NCBI GenBank assembly: GCA_905236385.1
Contig: CAJOOY010000008.1
Span: 1 to 43,527 of the forward strand
Source: an uncultured Spirochaetia bacterium
Lineage (GTDB): Bacteria; Spirochaetota; Spirochaetia; Sphaerochaetales; Sphaerochaetaceae
DNA: 43,527 nt
Direction: 5' to 3'
Shown: positions 6,427-38,879 of the stretch, piece after piece
How positions within the stretch are numbered: the stretch's first letter is position 1
Layout of the letters: each line of letters begins with the position of its first letter
The notes under the pieces: generated by a model
Databases searched by the model: none
Seen by the model: only the letters and a program-made list of their open reading frames with translations
Told to the model about the DNA's origin: nothing
Made by a program: the position numbers and the translations under genes

Positions 6427-8010
6427 ATGTGTTCAATCATAGGTTATACAGCAACTCATTATTCATCGGATTATGTAAGCGGGTTTTTCAACAGAACTGT
6501 ATCCAGGGGACCTGACAGCTCTTCTTTCAGATATGTCGGAAACAATACATATCTGGGTTTTCATAGACTCGCCATTATGGACTGTAACAACTCCGGTATG
6601 CAACCTTTTGTGCTTGGTACTGATGCAGTTGTATGCAATGGTGAGATTTATGGATTCAGAGCCATTAAAGAAAGTCTGAAAGGAAAATACAGTTTTAAAA
6701 GCAATTCTGACTGTGAGGTTCTGCTTCCTCTGTGGAAGGAGAAGGGCGTTGACATGTTCAGTACTCTTGATGCTGAATTTGCTCTTATCATCTATGACGG
6801 AGAAAGCTCTTCACTGATTGCAGCTAGAGATCCTATCGGTATAAGACCCCTGTTCTACGGCTATCTTGCAGATGGAAACATTATTTTCAGCAGTGAGGCC
6901 CGAAGTCTGGTCGGTCTCTGTGACAGAATCCTACCTTTCCCTCCAGGACACTATTACAAAGAAGGACAGTTCGTAAGATATACGGATATTTCAAAGCCTC
7001 TTTCATACTGCCATGATGATATTGATACCGTGTGCCGGAAGATAAGGGATTATCTTATAAAAGGCGTGGAGAAAAGGCTGGATTCAGATGCTCCTCTTGG
7101 TTTTCTTCTTTCAGGAGGTCTGGATTCCAGTCTTGTCTGTGCCATTTCCTCTAAGATACTTGGCCGCAGAATAGAGAGCTTTGCCATAGGTATGGACACT
7201 GATCCCATAGATCTCAAATACGCTGCTGAGGTTGCCTCTTTCATAGGTAGTTCACATATGGAAGTACGTATGAATATGGAAGAAGTTCTGTCAAATCTGG
7301 AAACTGTCATTTCCATTCTCGGAACCTGGGATATTACAACCATCAGGGCAAGCATGGGTATGTACCTTTGCTGCAAGGCAATCCATGAGAATACAAACAT
7401 AAAGGTTCTTCTGACCGGAGAGATTTCGGACGAGCTTTTCGGATACAAATATACGGACTATGCTCCCAATCCTCAGGCTTTTCAGTCAGAGGCCGAGAAA
7501 AGGATAAGGGAGATACACTTCTACGATGTCTTGAGAGCTGACAGATGCATATCAGACAATTCTCTGGAGGCTCGTGTGCCGTTCGGAGACCTTGAATTTG
7601 TCAGATACGTCATGTCGATTGATCCCAAGCTGAAGATGAATACCTACAACATGGGAAAGTACCTTCTGAGAAAGGCTTTTGAGAATGACCACATTCTTCC
7701 TGAACATATTCTTTGGAGACAGAAAGCAGCCTTCTCTGATGCTGTAGGTCACAGTATGGTAGACGGTCTGAAGAGTTACGCAGAGAAAAGATACTCAGAC
7801 AGAGAGTTTGAAATCAGAGCCAACCGTTTTGAGTACAGAACTCCGTTCACAAAGGAAAGTCTTCTGTACAGGGAAATCTTTGAAAAATACTATCCGGGTC
7901 AGGAGAGGATGATTCCTGATTACTGGATGCCGAATAAGGACTGGGAAGGCTGTAATGTTGCAGATCCTTCAGCCAGAGTTCTTTCAAACTATGGTGAAAG
8001 CGGAAAATAA
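6427..8010 (+). CDS. asnB: Asparagine synthetase, glutamine-hydrolysing
   Basis: Makes asparagine from aspartate, glutamine and ATP in the cytoplasm. The 527-aa protein has Cys2 as the N-terminal glutaminase nucleophile (MCSIIGYTA), GFHRLAIMD and CNGEIYG in the class II amidotransferase domain, and the synthetase PP-loop SGGLDSS at 229-235. It is slightly shorter than E. coli AsnB (554 aa). The start is 3 nt after the gdhA-remnant stop, and the GGGGG stretch at 6411-6416, inside that remnant, is the likely ribosome site. Expression is therefore probably coupled to translation of the remnant. It is followed 11 bp later by glnN. Confidence 0.95.
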   Translation: MCSIIGYTATHYSSDYVSGFFNRTVSRGPDSSSFRYVGNNTYLGFHRLAIMDCNNSGMQPFVLGTDAVVCNGEIYGFRAIKESLKGKYSFKSNSDCEVLLPLWKEKGVDMFSTLDAEFALIIYDGESSSLIAARDPIGIRPLFYGYLADGNIIFSSEARSLVGLCDRILPFPPGHYYKEGQFVRYTDISKPLSYCHDDIDTVCRKIRDYLIKGVEKRLDSDAPLGFLLSGGLDSSLVCAISSKILGRRIESFAIGMDTDPIDLKYAAEVASFIGSSHMEVRMNMEEVLSNLETVISILGTWDITTIRASMGMYLCCKAIHENTNIKVLLTGEISDELFGYKYTDYAPNPQAFQSEAEKRIREIHFYDVLRADRCISDNSLEARVPFGDLEFVRYVMSIDPKLKMNTYNMGKYLLRKAFENDHILPEHILWRQKAAFSDAVGHSMVDGLKSYAEKRYSDREFEIRANRFEYRTPFTKESLLYREIFEKYYPGQERMIPDYWMPNKDWEGCNVADPSARVLSNYGESGK

Positions 8011-8021
8011 GGAGGATAACC

Positions 8022-10124
8022 ATGATAGAGAGAAATAACATACCTGAGATGTTTGCTAGTCATGTTTTCAACGAGAAAACCATGAAAAAGTATATTTCTG
8101 AGGAGCACTATAAGCTTTATAAATCATGCATTGAGAGTGGAAAAAGTCTCCCTATGGAAACTGCAGAGGCCATAGCAGAAGGCATGAAGAACTGGGCAAT
8201 CTCCCTTGGTGCCACACACTATACTCACTGGTTCCAACCTCTCAACGGAGGAACTGCAGAGAAACACGAGAGTTTCATTGCTCCTGACGGAAAAGGTTCT
8301 GTTATTATGGAGTTTTCAGGAAAGGAGCTGGTTAAAGGTGAACCGGATGCCTCGTCTTTCCCTTCAGGGGGTCTGAGAGCAACTTTTGAAGCCCGTGGCT
8401 ACAGTGCCTGGGATCCTACCTCCCATGCTTTTGTATATGACGGAAGCCTCTGTATTCCAACCATGTTCTTCTCCTATTCCGGCGAAGCACTGGATAAAAA
8501 GACTCCTCTTCTGAGATCCATAAGAGCCCTCAACACGCAGGCTCTCAGGGTTCTGAGAATTCTTGGCGACAAGGAGACTGACTCAGTTACACCCATGGCC
8601 GGCGCAGAACAGGAGTACTTTCTTCTGGAAAAGGAGCTTTACAAGGAAAGAGAAGATCTGCAGATATGTGGAAGAACTCTATTCGGAGCCAGACCTCCAA
8701 AGACGCAGCAGTTGGATGACCATTATTTCGGAACCATCAAGCCCAGGGTCTCTGCCTTTATGAAGGATCTCGAGGAAGAACTGTGGAAGCTGGGAATACC
8801 TGCCAAGACAAAGCACAACGAGGTGGCCCCGTCTCAGCATGAAATGGCCCCCGTCTACTCGGATTCCAACACGGCAAACGACCAGAACCAGCTCACTATG
8901 AATCTTATGCGTCGTGTGGCTGACAGACATGGACTTGTCTGCGTTCTTTCGGAAAAGCCGTTTGATGGTGTGAACGGAAGCGGAAAACACAACAACTGGT
9001 CAATTGCCACTGACAGGGGAGAGAACCTCTTCTCGCCTGGAAAAACGCCTGATCAGAATGCCCGTTTCCTGCTTTTCCTGACTGCCTTCATCTCTGCAGT
9101 TGATGATTATCAGGAGCTTTTAAGATGCTCTGTTTCCTATGCCGGAAATGACAACCGTCTCGGAGGAAATGAAGCACCTCCCGCAATAATCTCCATATTC
9201 CTCGGCTCTGAGCTTCAGGGTGTTGTGGATTCAATTGTCAATGACAGCAGCTACAGCAGGGCAGATATCAAACCCATAAGGGTAGGGATAGATACCATGC
9301 CTGTCATACCAAGAGATACAACAGACCGTAACCGTACAAGCCCCATTGCCTTTACAGGAAACAAGTTTGAGTTCCGTATGCCTGGTTCAAGCCAGTCTAT
9401 AGCAGGACCGAACGTTATTCTGAATACAATAGTTGCTGAGAAACTTGGAGAATACGCCGACAGGCTTTCTTCTGTTGATGAGAAAAACCTCAAATCTTCT
9501 CTGCATGATTTGATTAGAGATGAGCTGATCAGGCACTCCAGGATAGTTTTCAACGGAAACGGCTATGATTCCTCATGGGTTGAGGAGGCAAAGAATAGGA
9601 GACTGAGCAATCTCAGGACAACTGCAGATGCTCTTCCATGTTATCTTACAGAGAAGAATATTGCCCTCATGGAAAAGCATAAGGTGCTTTCCAGGTCAGA
9701 GATGATTGCAAGAGACGAGATTCATATTGAAAAGTACTGCAATATCATCTCAATTGAAGCCAACACCCTGATAGATATGACCCAAAGGGAGATTATTCCC
9801 GCTGTCTCTGATTTTGAGGCAAGGCTCTGCTCTACGGCAATCAGCAGAAAGGAACTGATTAAGAAGGCTTCCCTGAATGTGGAGACAAGTCTCTGTCTGC
9901 GTCTGGCAGAGGCAAACGCCTCTTTGCAGAGTCTGATAGAGAAACTGAGGTCTGCTCTTTCGAATTCTCCTGAATTCTCTGATTACGCAGCTGCCAGATA
10001 TTTTCATGATGAGATTCTTTCTCTTATGAATGAAATCAGGGATGTCATTAACGTGGAAGAACAGCTTGTTCCACAGAAATACTGGCCATATCCGTCTTAC
10101 AGGCAGCTTCTTTTCTCAGTTTGA
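8022..10124 (+). CDS. glnN: Glutamine synthetase type III
   Basis: ATP-dependent amidation of glutamate to glutamine. At 700 aa it has the length of the GSIII class rather than the ~450 aa of GSI. Visible motifs are LNGGTAEKHESFI, FPSGGLRATFEARGYSAWDP, the metal-binding GAEQEYFL, KTKHNEVAPSQHEMAP, and GSGKHNNWSIATDRG. AAGGAGG stands about 7 nt before the ATG. It is the ammonia-capturing enzyme of the operon; with gdhA broken, it may be the main entry route for ammonia in this cluster. It is followed at 12 bp by glmS. Confidence 0.96.
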   Translation: MIERNNIPEMFASHVFNEKTMKKYISEEHYKLYKSCIESGKSLPMETAEAIAEGMKNWAISLGATHYTHWFQPLNGGTAEKHESFIAPDGKGSVIMEFSGKELVKGEPDASSFPSGGLRATFEARGYSAWDPTSHAFVYDGSLCIPTMFFSYSGEALDKKTPLLRSIRALNTQALRVLRILGDKETDSVTPMAGAEQEYFLLEKELYKEREDLQICGRTLFGARPPKTQQLDDHYFGTIKPRVSAFMKDLEEELWKLGIPAKTKHNEVAPSQHEMAPVYSDSNTANDQNQLTMNLMRRVADRHGLVCVLSEKPFDGVNGSGKHNNWSIATDRGENLFSPGKTPDQNARFLLFLTAFISAVDDYQELLRCSVSYAGNDNRLGGNEAPPAIISIFLGSELQGVVDSIVNDSSYSRADIKPIRVGIDTMPVIPRDTTDRNRTSPIAFTGNKFEFRMPGSSQSIAGPNVILNTIVAEKLGEYADRLSSVDEKNLKSSLHDLIRDELIRHSRIVFNGNGYDSSWVEEAKNRRLSNLRTTADALPCYLTEKNIALMEKHKVLSRSEMIARDEIHIEKYCNIISIEANTLIDMTQREIIPAVSDFEARLCSTAISRKELIKKASLNVETSLCLRLAEANASLQSLIEKLRSALSNSPEFSDYAAARYFHDEILSLMNEIRDVINVEEQLVPQKYWPYPSYRQLLFSV

Positions 10125-10136
10125 GCGAGGTATGTA

Positions 10137-12008
10137 ATGTGTGGAATAGTAGGTTATGTCGGCAAACGACAGGCAGCAAAGATTCTTCTGGATGGCCTGA
10201 GAAAGCTCGAATACAGAGGTTATGACTCTGCTGGAATTGCTGTTAGAAACGGCGCTGAGAACGCCCAGGTTGTGAAAACATCCGGTAGACTTAAAGCTCT
10301 GATTGAAAAGACGGAGAATGGAAAAAACATTCGCGGAACATGCGGTATAGGGCACACAAGATGGGCTACCCACGGTGTTCCTTCAGTTGCAAATGCCCAT
10401 CCCCATGTCAGTGGAAACTGTGCTGGAACAGGGAACGGACCAGTGGAGTCTTCGGTTGTAGGAGTTCACAACGGTATAATTGAAAACTATGCTGAGCTTA
10501 AAGCTAAGCTTATGTCCAAGGGGTATTCTTTCTACAGTGAAACTGACACAGAGGTTCTGGTGAAACTTGTGGACTATTATTATAACAAGTACAGAATAGG
10601 ACCTATAGATGCCATAAACAGAACAATGGTCAGAGCGAGGGGAAGCTACGCTCTGGCCCTTATGTTTACTGATTATCCTAATCAGATTTATGCAGCAAGA
10701 AAGGACTCTCCTCTGATTATAGGAAAGGGCGAGGAAGAGTCTTTTCTGGCGTCCGATGTACCTGCCATCCTGAATCATACAAGAAACGTTTATTATATAC
10801 AGAACCATCAGAGTGCAAGAATTGAAGAAGACAGGATAACATTCTTTGACCTTAACGGAGATGAGGTTTTTCTTCCTGAAACAGTTATAGAATGGGATGC
10901 CAAGGCGGCTGAAAAAGATGGCTTTGCGCACTATATGCTGAAAGAAATACACGAGCAGAGTACGGCCGTCAGAAATACTTTCAATTCCCTGGTAAGGGAA
11001 AGTGCCATACATCTTGAGGACTTTGGTCTTGACCAGAGTATTCTGAACGGAATTTCACATATAGACATAGTAGCCTGTGGTTCAGCCTGGCATGTGGGAG
11101 TGACAAGCCAGTATGTCATAGAGAGTCTTACGGATATTCCGGTCAGGGTTGAACTTGCTTCCGAGTTCAGATACAGAAACATGCCCATTACCTCGGGGAC
11201 TCTTGTCATAGTAATCTCCCAGTCCGGTGAAACAGCTGATACTCTGGCTGCACTGCGAAAAGCAAAACAGGCAGGCATTCCTGTACTTGCCGTTGTGAAT
11301 GTAGTGGGTTCGTCAATAGCACGTGAGGCCGACTATGTTCTTTATACTCTTGCCGGTCCTGAAATCTCCGTAGCTACAACAAAGGCCTACAGTGCCCAGC
11401 TTATAGCCATGGATCTTTTTGCAATCCAGTTGTCTTACTCAAAAGGATTCATAACCAGAGAAAAGTATTCATACTACATAGAGGAGGCCTCATCTCTTCC
11501 AGAGAAGATTGAAAGAATTCTGTTGGACAAGGAAAGACTGCAGTGGTTCTCTTCAAGGATCTCAGGTCAGGCAAACATGTTTTTCATAGGACGCGGTCTT
11601 GATTATTCTGTCTGTCTGGAGGGAAGCCTTAAAATGAAGGAGATAAGCTATATTCACTCAGAAGCCTACGCCGCAGGAGAGCTTAAACATGGAACCATAA
11701 GCCTTATTGAAGACGGTACCGTGGTTGTGGGAATCATGACGGAGAGTTCTGTCATGGATAAGACTTTCTCCAATATGATAGAGTGTAAGGCCAGAGGTGC
11801 GTATCTGATTTCTCTCACTTCCGCAGATCATCCTGTTCCTGATGAAGGAGAGATAGATTTTCAGATAACTGTACCTGCAACTGATGAACTTTTTCTTCCT
11901 TCCCTAGCTGTGATCCCTCTTCAGCTACTTAGCTATTACACAAGCGTAAACCGAGGTCTTGATGTGGATAAACCAAGAAATCTGGCAAAGAGTGTAACCG
12001 TTGAATGA
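10137..12008 (+). CDS. glmS: Glutamine--fructose-6-phosphate aminotransferase
   Basis: Makes glucosamine-6-phosphate from fructose-6-phosphate and glutamine, the first step to UDP-GlcNAc for peptidoglycan. The 623-aa protein has Cys2 in MCGIVGYVG, LEYRGYDSAGIAV, GHTRWATHG, and two SIS domains (ACGSAWHVG, then SQSGETADT and GRGLDYSVCLEGSLKMKE). It ends in the conserved KPRNLAKSVTVE. No glmS ribozyme structure is evident in the 12-nt gap before the start. Its stop lies 10 bp before the chosen nadE start. Confidence 0.97.
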   Translation: MCGIVGYVGKRQAAKILLDGLRKLEYRGYDSAGIAVRNGAENAQVVKTSGRLKALIEKTENGKNIRGTCGIGHTRWATHGVPSVANAHPHVSGNCAGTGNGPVESSVVGVHNGIIENYAELKAKLMSKGYSFYSETDTEVLVKLVDYYYNKYRIGPIDAINRTMVRARGSYALALMFTDYPNQIYAARKDSPLIIGKGEEESFLASDVPAILNHTRNVYYIQNHQSARIEEDRITFFDLNGDEVFLPETVIEWDAKAAEKDGFAHYMLKEIHEQSTAVRNTFNSLVRESAIHLEDFGLDQSILNGISHIDIVACGSAWHVGVTSQYVIESLTDIPVRVELASEFRYRNMPITSGTLVIVISQSGETADTLAALRKAKQAGIPVLAVVNVVGSSIAREADYVLYTLAGPEISVATTKAYSAQLIAMDLFAIQLSYSKGFITREKYSYYIEEASSLPEKIERILLDKERLQWFSSRISGQANMFFIGRGLDYSVCLEGSLKMKEISYIHSEAYAAGELKHGTISLIEDGTVVVGIMTESSVMDKTFSNMIECKARGAYLISLTSADHPVPDEGEIDFQITVPATDELFLPSLAVIPLQLLSYYTSVNRGLDVDKPRNLAKSVTVE

Positions 12009-26568: not shown

Positions 26569-27858
26569 TCAGTTTTCGTATTCTTCTTTTTCTTCTTTTA
26601 CAACAAGGACTTTAGCAACTCTGCGTTCATCCATTTCAAGAACAGTTACAGTCAGCTTTATATCGTCTAGTTCATCAAAGACAAAAGACTCTCCGTTTTT
26701 GGGGAAGTGCTCAAGAGATTCAACAGACCAGCCACCGACTGTTTCACTTTCACAATCAAAGTCGTCTTCAGAAATGTCCAGAAGGTTTAAGAAGTCACCA
26801 ATTGGCATATCGCCATCTATCTCAAACTCGTTTTCTTTTCTGAGTACAACTTCGGTTTCAATTGTGTCTGTCTCATCCCAAATATCGCCAACTAGCTTCT
26901 CAAGAACATCTTCAAGGGTGATTACGCCCATGGTGCCGCTGTATTCATCGGTAACAATTGCAAGATGGATTCTGCTCTTCTTGAACTGCTCAAGAACTAC
27001 AGGAAGCTTCATGGTTCTGTAAACAAAGCAGGGCTTATTAAGGATGCTTCTCAAGTCAAACGGACCGTTGTGTTCAATATAGGCCTTGTAGAAGTTATTT
27101 AGGTGGAGAATACCTATTATGTTATCAATGCTGTCCTGATAGACAGGTAGCCTTGAGTGCCTACTGTTTTCAACCGTGTTCAAGATAGTTTCCCAGCTGT
27201 CTTCTATATCTAAGAAGTTTACATCTACACGGGCAGTCATGACTTCAGAAGCAGAAATATCTGAGAAGTCAATAGCGTTCTGAATGAGCATGGTGTCATC
27301 TTCATCGAATGTTCCTTCATCTCCTGCTGTCTCAATAATTGATTGAAGCTCTTCAACTGTCTCATCTTCCATGTCTTCAGGCTTCTGCTTAAAGGGAAGG
27401 GTTAGTAGCCTTGTGAAAGCAACTACTGGTAATGAGATAGGAGTGAAGATGATCATTAAAAATCTTATGACAAAAGAATTATTAAGAGCCATCTTTGTAG
27501 CTGTCTTCTTGGCTGCAATCTTTGGAAGAGTTTCTCCGAAAATAATTACCAGCACCGTCATGGCCACAGTGGAAACCCATGCGTAACTGTTTCCCATAAG
27601 AAGAATTACAAGAACAGAAGCCATGGATGAACCGGCAATATTTACAAGGTTGTTCCCAATAAGTATAGAGGATAGTGCGTCATCAAAGTGCTCGCAAAGA
27701 TAGAGGGCACGGGAAGCCTTTTTGTTTCCACCTTCCTGAAGGTTCTCAAGTCTTACAGTGTTAGCAGAAGAGTAGGCCATCTCTGAGCCAGAGAAGAAGC
27801 CTGAAAGATAGATACAGATTATAATTCCCAAGGAGAGGATAATAACACTTGTAATCAT
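26569..27858 (-). CDS. CNNM/CorC-HlyC-type membrane CBS protein, copy 2
   Basis: A 429-aa hemolysin-C/CorC-like protein. An N-terminal DUF21/CNNM membrane domain (FFSGSEMAYSSAN, about four helices, residues 1-150) is followed by a tandem CBS pair (VMTARVDVNFLDIED, SRLPVYQDSIDNIIGILHL, IVTDEYSGTMGVITLEDVLE) and a C-terminal CorC_HlyC transporter-associated domain (EIDGDMPIGDFLNLL). The family is linked to Mg2+/Co2+ efflux and ion homeostasis. It overlaps its paralogue by 4 bp and is cotranscribed with it. Confidence 0.9.
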   Translation of the reverse strand: MITSVIILSLGIIICIYLSGFFSGSEMAYSSANTVRLENLQEGGNKKASRALYLCEHFDDALSSILIGNNLVNIAGSSMASVLVILLMGNSYAWVSTVAMTVLVIIFGETLPKIAAKKTATKMALNNSFVIRFLMIIFTPISLPVVAFTRLLTLPFKQKPEDMEDETVEELQSIIETAGDEGTFDEDDTMLIQNAIDFSDISASEVMTARVDVNFLDIEDSWETILNTVENSRHSRLPVYQDSIDNIIGILHLNNFYKAYIEHNGPFDLRSILNKPCFVYRTMKLPVVLEQFKKSRIHLAIVTDEYSGTMGVITLEDVLEKLVGDIWDETDTIETEVVLRKENEFEIDGDMPIGDFLNLLDISEDDFDCESETVGGWSVESLEHFPKNGESFVFDELDDIKLTVTVLEMDERRVAKVLVVKEEKEEYEN

Positions 27859-28919
27859 TTATCTTCTCCTTTGGACTCTTCAAGATAGATTCCTTCATCT
27901 TTTCTTTCTTTCAGATTGTTTTCTTCTGAAAGATCATCTGACTCGTCATAGATGTCTCCAACAAGCTCTTCCAAAATATCTTCAGTTGTTACTATTCCGA
28001 GTGTTCCACCGTAGGAGTCTTTGATTACTGCCATGGTAATCTTGTGCTTTGACATGAGTGGCAGAAGTTCTGAAATCTCTGAATCAGGGTTAGCAAAATG
28101 AACCTTATCCATAAGAGAAGAGATGGATGGAACCTTTCCACTCTGAATGTAGGCCTTCATAAAGGTCCTTATTTGGAGAACTCCTACTATATTATCAATG
28201 GTATTTTTATAGACGGGGAGTCGGCTGTGAGTCTGGTTTTTTAAAAAATCCAGAATCTGATTGGATGGCATATCTATATCTATTCCAACAATCCTAACTC
28301 TTGGAGTTAGTATGTTTTCAGCTTTTACATCTCCAAACTGGATGGCTGAAGTAATGAGTTCACTTTGCTCTTCATCCAGTGTTCCTTCTTCAGTCATATC
28401 TTCAATAATGTCCTGAATCTCATCTTCAGTAACCCCTTCATCTTCTCCCTTAATATGCTTGGCGGCAGCATTTCCAAAGAATGCGAGGAACTTAGAAACA
28501 GGGCTGAGGATTATCATAAAAAAGTGGATAAGGGAGGCTGAGGCAAGGGTCATGGAGTAGCTCTTCTTTTTCCCAACACTCTTTGGAAGCATATCTCCGA
28601 AGAAAAAGGCTGCAATAGTTGTAAAAATAGAAGCCAAGCTTACGTAAGTTATTCCCCAGGTTTTTGTTACATAAACAGTAACTATGGTTGCTGCAGCAAT
28701 AGTACAGAGGTTGTGCAGTACAAGAATTGTAGTAATTGCATTATCAAAATTTTCTAGTACAGTAAGAGCTGTTTCTGCGCGACTGTCGCCTCTTTCTGCA
28801 GCTATTTTAATTTTATTTTTTGAAACTGAGGCCAGAGCTGTCTCGGCCAAGGAAAGGATTCCTGCAAATAAGAACAGGAAAAGAAGTGATATCAGTGGAG
28901 GTTTACTACCATCATCCAT
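27855..28919 (-). CDS. CNNM/CorC-HlyC-type membrane CBS protein, copy 1
   Basis: A 354-aa paralogue of the following gene. It has a DUF21/CNNM membrane domain (LSLAETALASVSKNKIK, VLHNLCTIAAATIVTVYV) and a CBS pair (ILTPRVRIVGIDIDM, SRLPVYKNTIDNIVGVLQI, YGGTLGIVTTEDILEELVGD). It ends in a charged tail without a full CorC_HlyC domain, so it is shorter than its partner. AAGGAG lies about 14 nt from the ATG, a little far for efficient initiation. The coupled pair may work as a hetero-oligomer (inference). Confidence 0.9.
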   Translation of the reverse strand: MDDGSKPPLISLLFLFLFAGILSLAETALASVSKNKIKIAAERGDSRAETALTVLENFDNAITTILVLHNLCTIAAATIVTVYVTKTWGITYVSLASIFTTIAAFFFGDMLPKSVGKKKSYSMTLASASLIHFFMIILSPVSKFLAFFGNAAAKHIKGEDEGVTEDEIQDIIEDMTEEGTLDEEQSELITSAIQFGDVKAENILTPRVRIVGIDIDMPSNQILDFLKNQTHSRLPVYKNTIDNIVGVLQIRTFMKAYIQSGKVPSISSLMDKVHFANPDSEISELLPLMSKHKITMAVIKDSYGGTLGIVTTEDILEELVGDIYDESDDLSEENNLKERKDEGIYLEESKGEDK

Positions 28920-29076: not shown

Positions 29077-29105
29077 TTGACCATATCAAAAAATAAGTTT
29101 ATGTT
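29077..29105 (+). promoter_or_regulatory. Promoter of the lysine riboswitch transcript
   Basis: TTGACC (29077-29082), 17-nt spacer, TATGTT (29100-29105). The start point would be near 29112, a dozen bases before the P1 helix of the riboswitch. Confidence 0.55.
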
Positions 29106-29124
29106 GACTGCAACTGAATAAATC

Positions 29125-29283
29125 ATGATAGAGGCGCATCTGTTATGAGTAACTGCTTTGTTTCAGGCAATTGCGGGCAGCGGAAGGAACAGATGCCGAG
29201 GGGTTGGATGGAGCCTAACGTCCAGTGCCCGGGATGCAGGAGAATATCTTGCATACTGTCGGTTAATACCGGAGAGCTGTCAT
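29125..29283 (+). ncRNA. Lysine riboswitch aptamer (L-box)
   Basis: Conserved L-box blocks are present in order: GATAGAGGCGC at 29127, ATGAGTA at 29145-29151, GCCGAGG at 29195, and ACTGTC...GGAGAGCTGTC at the 3' end. Helices pair by eye. P1: 29125-29131 with 29277-29283. P2 base: GCATCTGTT (29136-29144) with AACAGATGC (29188-29196). P3: 29201-29230. P4: ATGCA (29234-29238) with TGCAT (29250-29254). P5: CGG (29260-29262) with CCG (29269-29271). AGGC in the P2 loop (29165-29168) can kiss GCCT in the P3 loop (29213-29216), as in known structures. It binds lysine and controls the antiporter gene at 29369. Confidence 0.9.
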
Positions 29284-29300
29284 ATTTTTGCTTTGGAAAC

Positions 29301-29368
29301 GGGATATTCCTAAGACAGAACTATGATAAGCGTGGTTCTGTTCAGAATTTAATTTAAGGAGTTATCCC
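29301..29368 (+). promoter_or_regulatory. Expression platform: stem sequestering the antiporter ribosome site
   Basis: GGGATATTCCT (29301-29311) can pair with AGGAGTTATCCC (29357-29368), 11 pairs with one bulged T, burying the Shine-Dalgarno AAGGAG (29356-29361) right up to the ATG. A second stem ACAGAAC/GTTCTGT (29315-29321 with 29335-29341) closes the loop. No stem followed by a T-run is present, so control is probably at translation rather than termination. The alternative anti-sequestering pairing was not resolved. Confidence 0.65.
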
Positions 29369-30868
29369 ATGAATGTTTTCCAGACCGCATGGTCCCTTCT
29401 TCCGGCAATCATTGCTATTTGTCTTGCACTCATTACCAAAGAAGTCTATTCGTCACTTTTTATCGGTATCCTCGCTGGAGGTCTATTGTACTCAGGTTTC
29501 AGCTTTGAGGGTACTCTCGTCCACGTCTTCCAGGACGGCTTTGTAGGCTCTCTTGCTGATGGCTACAATGTTGGAATCCTGGTCTTCCTAGTTCTGCTCG
29601 GTGCTCTTGTCAGCCTCATGAACAGAGCCGGTGGCTCAGCAGCCTTTGGTAACTGGGCATCAAGAAGAATCAAGACAAAATTTGGCGCTCAGATTGCTAC
29701 AATAGTTCTTGGTCTTCTGATTTTTATTGATGACTACTTCAACTGTCTTACAGTCGGTTCTGTTATGAGACCAGTTACAGACAAGGGAAATATCTCAAGA
29801 GCAAAGCTTGCCTATCTTATAGATGCAACAGCAGCTCCTATCTGTATTATTGCTCCAGTTTCATCCTGGGCTGCAGCAGTTTCAGGTTTTGTAGAAGAGG
29901 GTGGTTTCTCACTCTTCATCAAGGCTATTCCTTACAACTACTACGCCATTCTTACTATAGTTATGATGATTACTCTTGCAATCATGAAGCTTGACTATGG
30001 TCCAATGAAGAAGTACGAAGAGATTACAAACAAGACTGGAGACGTCTTCTCTGGCCTCAAGGCTGCATACAAGGAAGAGGAATCAAACAACGAGAGTGGA
30101 GCTATTGTTCTTGACCTGGTTCTCCCAATTATTGTTCTGATTATCAGCTGCGTAATTGGTATGATCTACTCAGGCGGATTCTTCTCAGGGGAATCATTTA
30201 TAGACGCATTCTCCAACTCAGATGCTTCAGTTGGTCTCATGCTCGGAAGTGCAGTAACTCTTGTTATTACAATTGTTTACTACCTTATCAGAAAGAGACT
30301 CAGCTTCAAGGATGCCATGAGCGGTATTCCTGAGGGATTCAAGGCTATGGTTCCGGCAATCCTCATCCTTACATTTGCTTGGACACTGAAGGCCATGACT
30401 GATTCTCTCGGAGCTAAGGAGTTTGTTGCAGGTCTTGTTGCCCAGTCAGCAGGCGGCTTCCAGAGCTTCCTCCCAATGATTGTATTCCTGATTGCTGTCG
30501 GTCTTTCCTTCTCAACAGGTACAAGCTGGGGAACATTCGGAATTCTTATTCCTATTACACTTTCAGTCTTCCCTGTAACAACATCTCTCGGAGTTGTCTG
30601 TGTATCAGCCTGTATGGCAGGTGCTGTCTGCGGTGACCACTGTTCACCTATCTCAGATACCACAATCATGGCTTCAGCAGGTGCTCAGTGTGACCACGTT
30701 GTACACGTTTCAACACAGCTTCCATATGCTTTGACCTGTGCTGCTGTTTCTGCTGTCACATACCTGATTGCAGGTTTTATTCCTACTTGGCAGATTGTTC
30801 TCCCAATTGGAATTATCCTTATGATTGGTACACTTTTCGTAATCAAGAGAAGAACTTCTTCCAACTGA
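29369..30868 (+). CDS. NhaC-family Na+/H+ antiporter, predicted lysine transporter (LysW type)
   Basis: A 499-aa inner-membrane protein with about twelve helices and two NhaC repeats; FIDDYFNCLTVGSVMRPVTD and later STGTSWGTFGILIPI and CGDHCSPISDTT are characteristic. NhaC-family members include Na+/H+ antiporters and, when preceded by lysine riboswitches, predicted lysine carriers (LysW; comparative-genomics work on the L-box). The riboswitch upstream makes lysine uptake the best assignment. AAGGAG gives a strong ribosome site that the expression platform can hide. The gene is followed by a strong terminator. Confidence 0.88.
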   Translation: MNVFQTAWSLLPAIIAICLALITKEVYSSLFIGILAGGLLYSGFSFEGTLVHVFQDGFVGSLADGYNVGILVFLVLLGALVSLMNRAGGSAAFGNWASRRIKTKFGAQIATIVLGLLIFIDDYFNCLTVGSVMRPVTDKGNISRAKLAYLIDATAAPICIIAPVSSWAAAVSGFVEEGGFSLFIKAIPYNYYAILTIVMMITLAIMKLDYGPMKKYEEITNKTGDVFSGLKAAYKEEESNNESGAIVLDLVLPIIVLIISCVIGMIYSGGFFSGESFIDAFSNSDASVGLMLGSAVTLVITIVYYLIRKRLSFKDAMSGIPEGFKAMVPAILILTFAWTLKAMTDSLGAKEFVAGLVAQSAGGFQSFLPMIVFLIAVGLSFSTGTSWGTFGILIPITLSVFPVTTSLGVVCVSACMAGAVCGDHCSPISDTTIMASAGAQCDHVVHVSTQLPYALTCAAVSAVTYLIAGFIPTWQIVLPIGIILMIGTLFVIKRRTSSN

Positions 30869-30890
30869 TTCACAATGTAGGAATTATAGT

Positions 30891-30921
30891 AAAAGCGGAG
30901 CACTTGCTCCGCTTTTGTTTT
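30891..30921 (+). terminator. Intrinsic terminator after the antiporter gene
   Basis: Perfect 11-bp stem AAAAGCGGAGC / GCTCCGCTTTT with an ACTT loop (30891-30916), followed by GTTTT. It lies 22 bp after the stop codon and isolates the riboswitch unit from the next gene. The A-run on the other side may also let it work backwards. Confidence 0.9.
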
Positions 30922-35818: not shown

Positions 35819-37440
35819 TGGACTTTGAACTAAGATACCGTATTCGGAATTCTAATCTCGTATTAAATACTACTTCTGCCAATTCTGACGTTGAAATCTG
35901 CTCAGAATCCAAGGAAAAGTGGTATAGTCTAACTGTTACAGCAAAGCAGGAGCTGGTATTGGATTCTGCTTTGCTTGACAGTGTTTTCAGTATAGGTAAG
36001 ACAGACACGTTCTTTATGAACGGCTATCAGAGTTGGACTGATTCAAAAGAAATGGTTCTCTCTGAAAACCCGACTGAACGGAATTCAAATAGAATTCCCC
36101 GCATTCTTAGAAACATTTTTGCCTTTGACCGCTACGGAGACTCTGTTTTCTACAACTATAAATCCAACACCGTTCATGGTTATGATGTTTTTTATGTCAA
36201 AGGTAAAAAGAGCTTTTTCTCTTTTAACAGAAATTCTGATACTTCTTTTGCTATCTATGAAGTAAATAAAGACGCAGGAAACCTCAGAATTAAATCAGAT
36301 ATAAAGGGTCTCTCTCTTAAAGCCGGAGAGAGTGTAAAGATTTTTGATCTGTACCTTGGCTCTGATTACGAAGAGGGTCTTAAGGAATTTAAGTCTTATT
36401 TCAATGTAGGAAAGAAAGAAAAGATAATAGGTTACACATCTTGGTACAACCACTATCAGAACATTAATGAAGACATCATTTCAAGGGCCCTTGATCATAT
36501 GGACAAGCCTTTCAACCTGTTTCAGATAGATGATGGTTACGAGACCTTTGTTGGAGACTGGACTGATGTTGACCCTGCCAAGTTTCCTTCCGGACTTAAG
36601 GCTATTGTTTCGAGAATACACGAGAAGGGTATGAAGGCCGGAATCTGGCTTGCTCCATTTGTTGCTGAAACAAAAAGCCGCGTTTACAGAGAGCATTATG
36701 ACTGGATTTTAAAGGACAGGGATGGAAAACCCAGTCGTTGCGGATCAAACTGGAGCGGTTTCTATGCTCTGGATCTGAGAAAAGAAGAGGTCAGGGAGTA
36801 CTTGAAAAAGTGTTTTGATAATTTTCTCTCCATTGGTTTTGACTTTTTCAAACTGGATTTTCTCTACGCTTCTATGATTGAAGAAGTTGAAGGCTACACC
36901 AGAGCCCAGATGGCCAGAAAGAGCTATTCATACCTACGCTCTCTTGTGGGAGATAAGATTATTCTCGGTTGTGGGGCTTCTTGTTTTCCAGCCTATGGAC
37001 TATTTGACTACATGAGAATAGGGCCAGATGTTTCTTTGGAGTTTGATGATGTTTGGTATATGCGCCACATGCACAGAGAGCGTGTTTCAACTAAGACAAC
37101 TCTACAGAACACCATCTACAGGTCCATGTTTGACACTTCTCTTTTCGGAAACGACCCTGATGTTGTTCTTTTAAGAGATGCAAATATTAAGCTCACTCCA
37201 AAACAGAGAGAAGCTTTGATTATGATTAATTCCCTCTTTGGCTCTGTGTTTATGACCAGCGACGATATAGGCGAGTATGATGATAAGAAGAAAGGACTTC
37301 TCTCTCGCTGTCTAGATGTTTTCCAAAACGCAGAAGAGAAAAGTTTTGAAAGAAAAGGAAATATCATAACTGTCACCTATGTATGTCATGGCAAAAAGGA
37401 AAGTTTCTCCTACCACACTCAAAAAGGAATACTACTATGA
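35818..37440 (+). CDS. Alpha-galactosidase, GH36
   Basis: Removes terminal alpha-galactose from imported oligosaccharides. The 540-aa protein (shorter than the ~720-aa GH36 group I enzymes) has an N-terminal beta domain, then the TIM barrel with GYTSWYNHY, FQIDDGYE, GIWLAPFVAE, nucleophile D347 in FFKLDFLYA and acid/base D404 in RIGPDVSLEF. No signal peptide, so intracellular, matching uptake by the symporter. Its ATG overlaps the symporter stop and its TGA overlaps the next start (ATGA), giving a tight three-gene cassette. Confidence 0.92.
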   Translation: MDFELRYRIRNSNLVLNTTSANSDVEICSESKEKWYSLTVTAKQELVLDSALLDSVFSIGKTDTFFMNGYQSWTDSKEMVLSENPTERNSNRIPRILRNIFAFDRYGDSVFYNYKSNTVHGYDVFYVKGKKSFFSFNRNSDTSFAIYEVNKDAGNLRIKSDIKGLSLKAGESVKIFDLYLGSDYEEGLKEFKSYFNVGKKEKIIGYTSWYNHYQNINEDIISRALDHMDKPFNLFQIDDGYETFVGDWTDVDPAKFPSGLKAIVSRIHEKGMKAGIWLAPFVAETKSRVYREHYDWILKDRDGKPSRCGSNWSGFYALDLRKEEVREYLKKCFDNFLSIGFDFFKLDFLYASMIEEVEGYTRAQMARKSYSYLRSLVGDKIILGCGASCFPAYGLFDYMRIGPDVSLEFDDVWYMRHMHRERVSTKTTLQNTIYRSMFDTSLFGNDPDVVLLRDANIKLTPKQREALIMINSLFGSVFMTSDDIGEYDDKKKGLLSRCLDVFQNAEEKSFERKGNIITVTYVCHGKKESFSYHTQKGILL

Positions 37441-38879
37441 AAGTAAAAGATAAAAGCGCTGTTATTTTTGGTAACCCTATGCCTGAAAAGGTCTTACGTT
37501 CAGCTGAGAAGAGCAAAGCCTCCTACGAAAAGAAGTTTGGATCAGATGCGGAAAAGCACTACAAACTTGGTTTTGAGAAGATTGAAACACTGGATTTTCT
37601 AGGGGCTCAGAACATAGTCTTTAAAGATAAGGCTGAGAAGTTTGATGAGAAGGCACTGATAGTTGGAAATATAAGAATGGGTTTTGGACACTACAGAATC
37701 TCTATTGCCATGGCTAGTGCTGCACGAGCTTTAGGCTACACGCCTTACTGGCTTGATTTAGCTGGTTTTGAAGCAACCGGTAGCAAGATGATTAGAGCTC
37801 AAAACGACCTGTATTCACTAGCTTCCCGTATTTCTCAGAAGTCAAAACTCTTTAACTCCCTTATTTGGGAGCCGTTGAACAGTGAAGGTTTTAAGAAGAT
37901 TACTTACAACGCTAAGGACCAGAAAAACAGTGAGTTACTTGTTCCGATTTTTGAAGGCATAGACAAGGACGTGCCGTACATTGCCACACATGTGTGGCCC
38001 AGCCAGGGAGCCATTCATGCGGGCATGACACACGTTGTAAATGCTGTGCCGGATAACTGGCCCATGGCTCTTCACCTGTCTGAGGGTGCAATTCATGCAG
38101 TTCAGACCCCGTTTGCTTACTTAGGGTACAAGACTTTTAACGGTTTTGACAAAAAGCCACTTAAGGGCATGAGCGAGAAAGAGCTGAAAATGACTGGTCA
38201 TTTTGTTGACCATGAACTGGTTGTGAACCTTGAACAGGACAATGAAAACAGAAAGAAGAGAGTTCTTGAAAACAGGCCATTAAGGTTCCTTCTAACAGTT
38301 GGAGGAGCAGGGGCTGGCTTTAAGCAGTTTCTACAGGTAGTTGAGCACTTAATTCCTTATGTCAAAGAGAAAAAGGCTGCGCTGTTCATTAACTTTGGAG
38401 ATCATAAAAACGTCTATGACAAGATGCTTAGTAGTCTTGGAAAGATAGAAACAGTGAACTTCTTTGACAGGTATAATGAGCTTAAGGAGTTTAAAAAATC
38501 TCTTGAAGCAGAAGACGTAAGTGGAATCTACTGCATTTGTAATTCAAATATTTTTGAGGCTGTGTACAGCACAAACCTTCTTATGAATGTGTCAGATGTA
38601 CTTGTAACTAAGCCTTCCGAGTTAGCTTACTATCCTATCCCAAAACTATTCATGCGCCATATAGGTGGACATGAGGTCTATGGAGCCATACACGGAAGAG
38701 AGTTTGGAGACTCTACTTGGGAGTGCCCAGACCCTAAATCCATGGCAAACATGCTTGATAGTCTACTTAATGATAGAGAGATTCTTGCACATATGGCTGA
38801 TGAGATAACTAAGCAGAAGGCTCAGGGACTGTACAACGGAGCCTATGAGTGCGTTAAGTTGGCCGCCTCTGGCAGATAA
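37437..38879 (+). CDS. Unplaced protein, possibly a GT-B-fold glycosyltransferase
   Basis: I cannot name this 480-aa protein. Residues about 65-110 have the flavour of an N-terminal Rossmann half (ALIVGNIRMGFGHYRISIAM with ARALGYTPYWLDLAG). The C-terminal half has FLLTVGGAGAGFKQFLQVVE, LFINFGDHK, and VSDVLVTKPSELAYYPIPKL followed by GGHEVYGAIHGREFGDSTWE. That layout resembles the donor-binding half of MurG/MGDG-synthase-type GT-B enzymes. The central THVWPSQGAIHAGMTHVVNA and HLSEGAIHAVQTPFAYLG are striking and conserved-looking. It is coupled to the alpha-galactosidase by ATGA, so it may process the same sugar. Function is inference. Confidence 0.6.
   Translation: MKVKDKSAVIFGNPMPEKVLRSAEKSKASYEKKFGSDAEKHYKLGFEKIETLDFLGAQNIVFKDKAEKFDEKALIVGNIRMGFGHYRISIAMASAARALGYTPYWLDLAGFEATGSKMIRAQNDLYSLASRISQKSKLFNSLIWEPLNSEGFKKITYNAKDQKNSELLVPIFEGIDKDVPYIATHVWPSQGAIHAGMTHVVNAVPDNWPMALHLSEGAIHAVQTPFAYLGYKTFNGFDKKPLKGMSEKELKMTGHFVDHELVVNLEQDNENRKKRVLENRPLRFLLTVGGAGAGFKQFLQVVEHLIPYVKEKKAALFINFGDHKNVYDKMLSSLGKIETVNFFDRYNELKEFKKSLEAEDVSGIYCICNSNIFEAVYSTNLLMNVSDVLVTKPSELAYYPIPKLFMRHIGGHEVYGAIHGREFGDSTWECPDPKSMANMLDSLLNDREILAHMADEITKQKAQGLYNGAYECVKLAASGR

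Follow-up and report, generated by a model that had tools for sequence, protein, structure and literature searches.

In an uncultured member of the Spirochaetia, a lysine riboswitch (L-box) appears to act as a translational OFF switch on a LysW-type carrier, which is itself probably the lysine importer of the cell. We put the probability of this reading at roughly 0.72, and three parts of it are inferred: that the ligand binds, in which direction control runs, and that lysine is what the carrier moves. The unit lies on a 43,527-nucleotide stretch of DNA that was analysed as a whole and is referred to below as the window (contig CAJOOY010000008.1, positions 1 to 43,527 of the forward strand). 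The aptamer and the promoter-like site ahead of it comprise the following features.

29077 to 29105, forward strand: promoter-like site, TTGACC-17-TATGTT (consensus scan, 9/12)
29121 to 29287, forward strand: lysine riboswitch aptamer with five helices (Rfam RF00168)
29125 to 29131, forward strand: 5' strand of P1 (partner 29277-29283; 7/7 pairs in 11 sequences)
29136 to 29196, forward strand: P2 arm (29136-29144/29188-29196 and 29153-29158/29175-29180; L2 AGGC at 29165-29168; Rfam alignment)
29200 to 29230, forward strand: P3 arm (L3 GCCU at 29213-29216; Rfam alignment)
29231 to 29257, forward strand: P4 (Rfam alignment)
29259 to 29272, forward strand: P5 (Rfam alignment)
29277 to 29283, forward strand: 3' strand of P1 (the switching strand is UGUCAUA, 29278-29284)

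A scan with Rfam matched RF00168 over the full model (1-182) at 95.0 bits (gathering score 30 bits, E value 4.8e-24). This is the clear L-box match that the initial annotation had expected, and it was the sole Rfam match in the whole window; a search of the genome found the window copy of the lysine riboswitch and none elsewhere. Mapped onto the RF00168 model with high alignment posteriors, 47 of the 49 aligned consensus pairs are canonical. P1, P2 (in two parts), P3, P4 and P5 are each present, as are the five-helix junction and the conserved core, so the helices and core that had been traced from the letters are borne out. The kissing-loop complement described earlier is likewise there, if short: AGGC in L2 and GCCU in L3, read from the sequence, could form four contiguous pairs, with a fifth lying past a C/A mismatch. 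On these grounds the element is a genuine lysine riboswitch, and lysine binding is predicted. Transcription from the promoter-like site is predicted to start at about 29111-29113, just 5' of P1. Sites of this kind are about as frequent in the region as chance predicts, and the one at 29077-29105 therefore carries little weight by itself.

Downstream of the aptamer, the RNA platform, the carrier gene and the end of the unit are laid out as follows.

29301 to 29311, forward strand: 5' arm of the sequestering stem, GGGAUAUUCCU
29314 to 29342, forward strand: nested 12-bp hairpin inside the outer stem (arms 29314-29325/29331-29342)
29322 to 29328, forward strand: anti-P1 segment UAUGAUA, in the 5' arm and loop of the hairpin (partner P1 3' strand, 29278-29284)
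29356 to 29361, forward strand: Shine-Dalgarno AAGGAG (read from the sequence)
29357 to 29368, forward strand: 3' arm of the sequestering stem, AGGAGUUAUCCC
29369 to 30868, forward strand: gene for an NhaC-superfamily carrier of 499 aa, LysW-like, a putative lysine importer (PF03553)
30888 to 30919, forward strand: intrinsic-terminator-like hairpin 3' of the carrier gene

The platform folds at -30.4 kcal/mol, compared with -17.7 +/- 2.8 kcal/mol for 200 shuffles. U29362 is bulged in the sequestering stem, and the mean unpaired probability of AGGAG is 0.06 when P1 is formed. The initial annotation had proposed that this stem hides the Shine-Dalgarno and implies translational control; it had the coordinates exactly, and no terminator was found between the aptamer and the start codon in a scan of the window. 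Intrinsic termination before the start codon was considered as a mechanism for the window and rejected, since the terminator scan was empty there.

Conservation of the stem was judged by shuffle and arm-swap tests and not from a MAFFT alignment: the spacing between P1 and the 5' arm differs among relatives, and the alignment put that arm in the wrong place. In the shuffle test, the 5' arm was subjected to dinucleotide shuffling and the number of shuffles per 1000 that reached the energy of the native duplex was counted. The window sequence (L001) gave 26, which is only modestly significant when taken alone. Counts for relatives from the family that share the gene order were 0 for L094, L105 and L106, 1 for L096, 2 for L090, 7 for L086 and 8 for L093; the stem of L091 is not significant (85), and that of L084, a close relative, is unsupported (671). 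When arms were exchanged among five lineages, the native pairing was better than all 119 other permutations (120 in total), with a summed energy of -80.8 kcal/mol against a mean of -53.6 kcal/mol. The stems themselves differ in sequence from lineage to lineage (GGGAU.../...AUCCC, AGACGUCC/GGAGACGUCU, AAUGUCUUC/GGGAGACAUU). That native arms form the best of 120 permutations despite these differences argues that the predicted stem is conserved as a stem, through compensatory change across the five lineages, with L084 as a clear exception. In L099, a long insertion of about 100 bases or more lies between the conserved nested hairpin and the NhaC start codon, and control there may be broken or altered.

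Hiding of the ribosome site might be only a trigger, with control falling mainly on transcription or RNA stability through Rho-dependent termination or RNase cleavage. There is precedent in the E. coli lysC riboswitch, where control of translation is coupled with cleavage by RNase E (PMC5584792), and a related genus (L100-L102, L115, L116) has terminator-like stems that include the Shine-Dalgarno. The window, however, carries no intrinsic terminator ahead of its start codon, and we regard control of this kind as rather unlikely.

A link between the stem and P1 would be provided by the anti-P1 segment. Across the window and ten relatives, its complementarity to the 3' strand of P1 amounts to 7/7 pairs in 10 of the 11 sequences and 6/7 in the remaining one, and its position is identical in all 11. 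Three of its bases lie in the loop and vary (AUA, ACA, GCA, AUG, AUU), with the pairing kept except at one position in L105; past a bulge, two more pairs could lengthen the helix. The energy of the pairing alone is unexceptional, being reached by 88 of 1000 shuffles for the window and by up to about 450 for relatives with the same platform. The support for this candidate helix is its fixed position, not its energy. The 5' strand of P1 can in turn pair with the 3' arm of the hairpin (6/6 pairs in ten sequences, 5/6 in one), partly because the hairpin resembles P1. Another candidate, the pairing of GACAG (29314-29318) with CUGUC, was dropped for want of conservation among relatives.

Since the 5' arm of the hiding stem lies within the anti-P1 helix, the stem and that helix are mutually exclusive in a nested fold. 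The proposed mechanism would then run as follows. With lysine bound, P1 would close and the downstream RNA would fold its own 12-bp hairpin; the outer stem (29301-29311/29357-29368) would cover the Shine-Dalgarno, and little carrier would be made. When lysine is absent, the 3' strand of P1 would pair with UAUGAUA (29322-29328) and open the nested hairpin, and the stem, its 5' arm enclosed by the anti-P1 helix, would be blocked, allowing ribosomes to load.

Energy calculations suggest when during synthesis this choice could be made. In unliganded nascent RNA, anti-P1 has an advantage of ~2-4 kcal/mol over P1 when the transcript ends at 29331-29337 or at 29346-29362, and the two are near-equal when it ends at 29340-29343. 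Once the 3' arm of the stem has emerged (from 29368), the hidden state leads by ~1-4 kcal/mol, and in the finished RNA it is favoured even without P1; with the ON fold enforced, the Shine-Dalgarno is unpaired to the extent of only about one third. Because the hidden state wins in the full RNA without P1, the ON state would be kinetic, and this is how it is most easily read.

The product of the gene under this switch belongs to the NhaC superfamily, scoring 167.9 bits with PF03553 in Pfam (cut-off 23). Against TIGR00931, the equivalog model for the NhaC Na+/H+ antiporter, it scores 43.4 bits, far short of the curated cut-off (370 bits). Its predicted structure (pLDDT 84) shows the elevator fold common to INDY/NaS1, ArsB and TRAP carriers and to an MleN model. 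Such a fold is consistent with a solute carrier but does not tell which solute is moved. Among solved structures, a search by sequence returned no relative, and the open literature searched held neither lysine uptake data for LysW nor experimental evidence on the carrier family. By arrangement the protein is LysW-like: it is an NhaC-superfamily protein under a lysine riboswitch, and one clade of the superfamily is so associated.

Genome context bears on what the carrier moves. The genome is a 1.4-Mb draft in 92 contigs, estimated at 96% complete, and contains one PF03553 gene. Searches of this draft gave no match for lysA, dapA or dapB, nor for AA_permease or AA_permease_2, the two APC-type families that made up the permease search; aspartokinase is present, as two pieces on two contigs. 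The absent lysine genes could be draft gaps. With no dapA, dapB, lysA or APC permease detected, the host looks like a lysine auxotroph. Such a cell would need lysine from outside, and the only gene it keeps under a lysine riboswitch is the carrier, which favours lysine import. Lysine uptake is thus predicted as the most likely role of the carrier, ahead of pH control.

The same riboswitch could in principle govern a true Na+/H+ (or other cation) antiporter that balances pH or sodium when lysine is short. The name of the family is that of a Na+/H+ antiporter, the alternative has been raised before (PMC11477304, PMC5584792), and the predicted elevator fold, shared by many carriers, does not identify the solute. 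Against this stand the apparent dependence on external lysine, in a genome where neither a lysine pathway nor an APC permease was detected and the sole riboswitch-controlled gene is the carrier, and the finding that within the family the riboswitch follows only one clade of the superfamily; we consider an antiporter role unlikely. An ON switch, in which lysine would raise expression of, for example, a lysine exporter, is highly improbable: some lysine riboswitches have been assigned ON logic (PMC2258182) and NhaC-type carriers can be antiporters, but P1 does not overlap the hiding stem, its freed strand can disrupt the nested hairpin (which gives OFF logic), and a cell that seems to be an auxotroph would have little reason to keep an exporter as the only gene it regulates by lysine.

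Comparison across the family returns to lysine import under an OFF switch. A riboswitch precedes NhaC in 18 of the 23 family genomes with a homologue of at least 67% identity and in none of the 50 with only 34-53% homologues; within the family, the predicted riboswitch goes with a single clade of the superfamily. LysA, counted as present when matched strongly (at least 270 bits, a threshold chosen in the analysis), is missing from 9 of 11 genomes with the riboswitch-NhaC pair as opposed to 7 of 26 others (Fisher p 0.003, with genomes that are not independent); counted by genus, the figures are 5/6 and 2/16.

Other lysine riboswitches of the relatives precede dapA, lysC and asd-like genes, as named from the starts of the proteins. 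The sister species G001 has a second riboswitch, which lies ahead of dapA and leads into a classical terminator (GACAGUUGCUUCGCAGCUGUC and a U-run), unlike the NhaC copy of the same genome, which hides the ribosome site. A single cell thereby couples one aptamer class to two kinds of output. At the dapA locus of G001 (L082, contig 113), both dapA and dapB lie under the lysine riboswitch, and lysA was detected in none of the four genomes of its genus. In G002 (L085, contig 12), a dapA-type riboswitch with a terminator lies next to a gene whose product has the zinc ribbon of an ISL3 transposase, and dapB was not found in the draft; since the neighbour is of transposase type and dapB was not found, this riboswitch looks like the relic of a lost lysine pathway or operon.

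In the genus g8 (L100-L102, L115, L116), the stem hides GGAGG and is followed directly by a U-run and then the start codon, and the hairpin may be both terminator and ribosome-site lock. We entertain only tentatively a wider scenario, doubtful as it stands, in which the nested hairpin would be a mimic of P1 and would exchange strands with it reciprocally in the absence of lysine (P1 3' strand with hairpin 5' arm, P1 5' strand with hairpin 3' arm). The ON state would then be short-lived and co-transcriptional, not an equilibrium, and related lineages would either have remodelled the scaffold as a terminator that overlaps the ribosome site or have retained a pure translational switch.

Around the start codon, L005 has the sequence of L094 and L030 that of L091; L005 and L030 belong to a Sphaerochaetaceae and a Spirochaetales draft genome, which makes a gut spirochaete of Sphaerochaetaceae type the most likely host of the window. 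Beyond the family, the wider close homologues of the carrier are clostridial, and a lysine riboswitch lies just upstream in 51 of the closest 80. The initial annotation had set translational control in the window against the termination typical of Firmicutes. This contrast holds for most clostridial relatives, which do have terminators, but not for L010 and L014, Firmicutes that share the pure hiding stem. The arrangement is thus shared by more than one phylum, perhaps through transfer.

Several other loci of the window deserve brief mention. Asparagine synthase-like, type III glutamine synthetase and SIS/glutamine-amidotransferase genes stand in a row at 6427-12008 (forward strand). Two adjoining CNNM/CBS-domain (CorC-like) genes occupy 26569-28919 (reverse strand), the second of them divergent from the riboswitch-NhaC unit. 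A 498-aa protein composed of DUF6937 and DUF6938 is encoded at 37383-38879, just after a sugar-transporter/melibiase-like pair.

The LysW designation is said, in later citations, to go back to Rodionov et al. 2003. NhaC-superfamily LysW (COG1757) is a listed target of lysine riboswitches in Firmicutes, Gammaproteobacteria and Betaproteobacteria, in a paper with no mention of spirochaetes (PMC5584792). The C. difficile gene CD1655 pairs a lysine riboswitch with an NhaC-type gene whose function a 2024 review calls unknown (PMC11477304), and an Exiguobacterium NhaC has been annotated as a lysine transporter on the strength of its riboswitch (PMC5399880). Sequestor/antisequestor control and dual platforms, in which a terminator also covers the ribosome site, were described by Barrick and Breaker in 2007 (PMC2258182), who predicted mechanisms for lysine riboswitches too and remarked that riboswitches had rarely been seen in spirochetes at that time. 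The interpretation offered by the initial annotation is thus largely right and not new, riboswitch-LysW pairs and both kinds of platform having been published: its transfer of an NhaC antiporter to lysine uptake finds support in the genome context, whereas its novelty falls with the earlier listing of LysW (PMC5584792). What is added is that context, an apparent auxotroph with one lysine riboswitch, one NhaC and no APC permease detected. Whether NhaC-type genes under lysine riboswitches serve lysine import or pH was still described as open in 2024 (PMC11477304), and an apparent auxotroph with a single riboswitch and a single carrier is something of a natural test case, one that argues for import.

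Set beside known systems, the aptamer resembles RF00168 in its full-length match, five helices, conserved core and use of P1 as the switching helix, and departs from it only by ordinary sequence variation and a short L2/L3 complement. Like the translational OFF riboswitches of PMC2258182, the platform has a ribosome-site hairpin that cannot coexist with a pairing made by the 3' strand of P1; unlike them, it places the antisequestor in a separate, nested 12-bp hairpin, whose arms mimic P1 such that both P1 strands have alternative partners. The unit as a whole shares with the riboswitch-LysW arrangement (PMC5584792, PMC11477304) a riboswitch directly before an NhaC-superfamily carrier, and differs from it in that the host is a spirochaete and that the carrier is the sole lysine-regulated gene of an apparent auxotroph.
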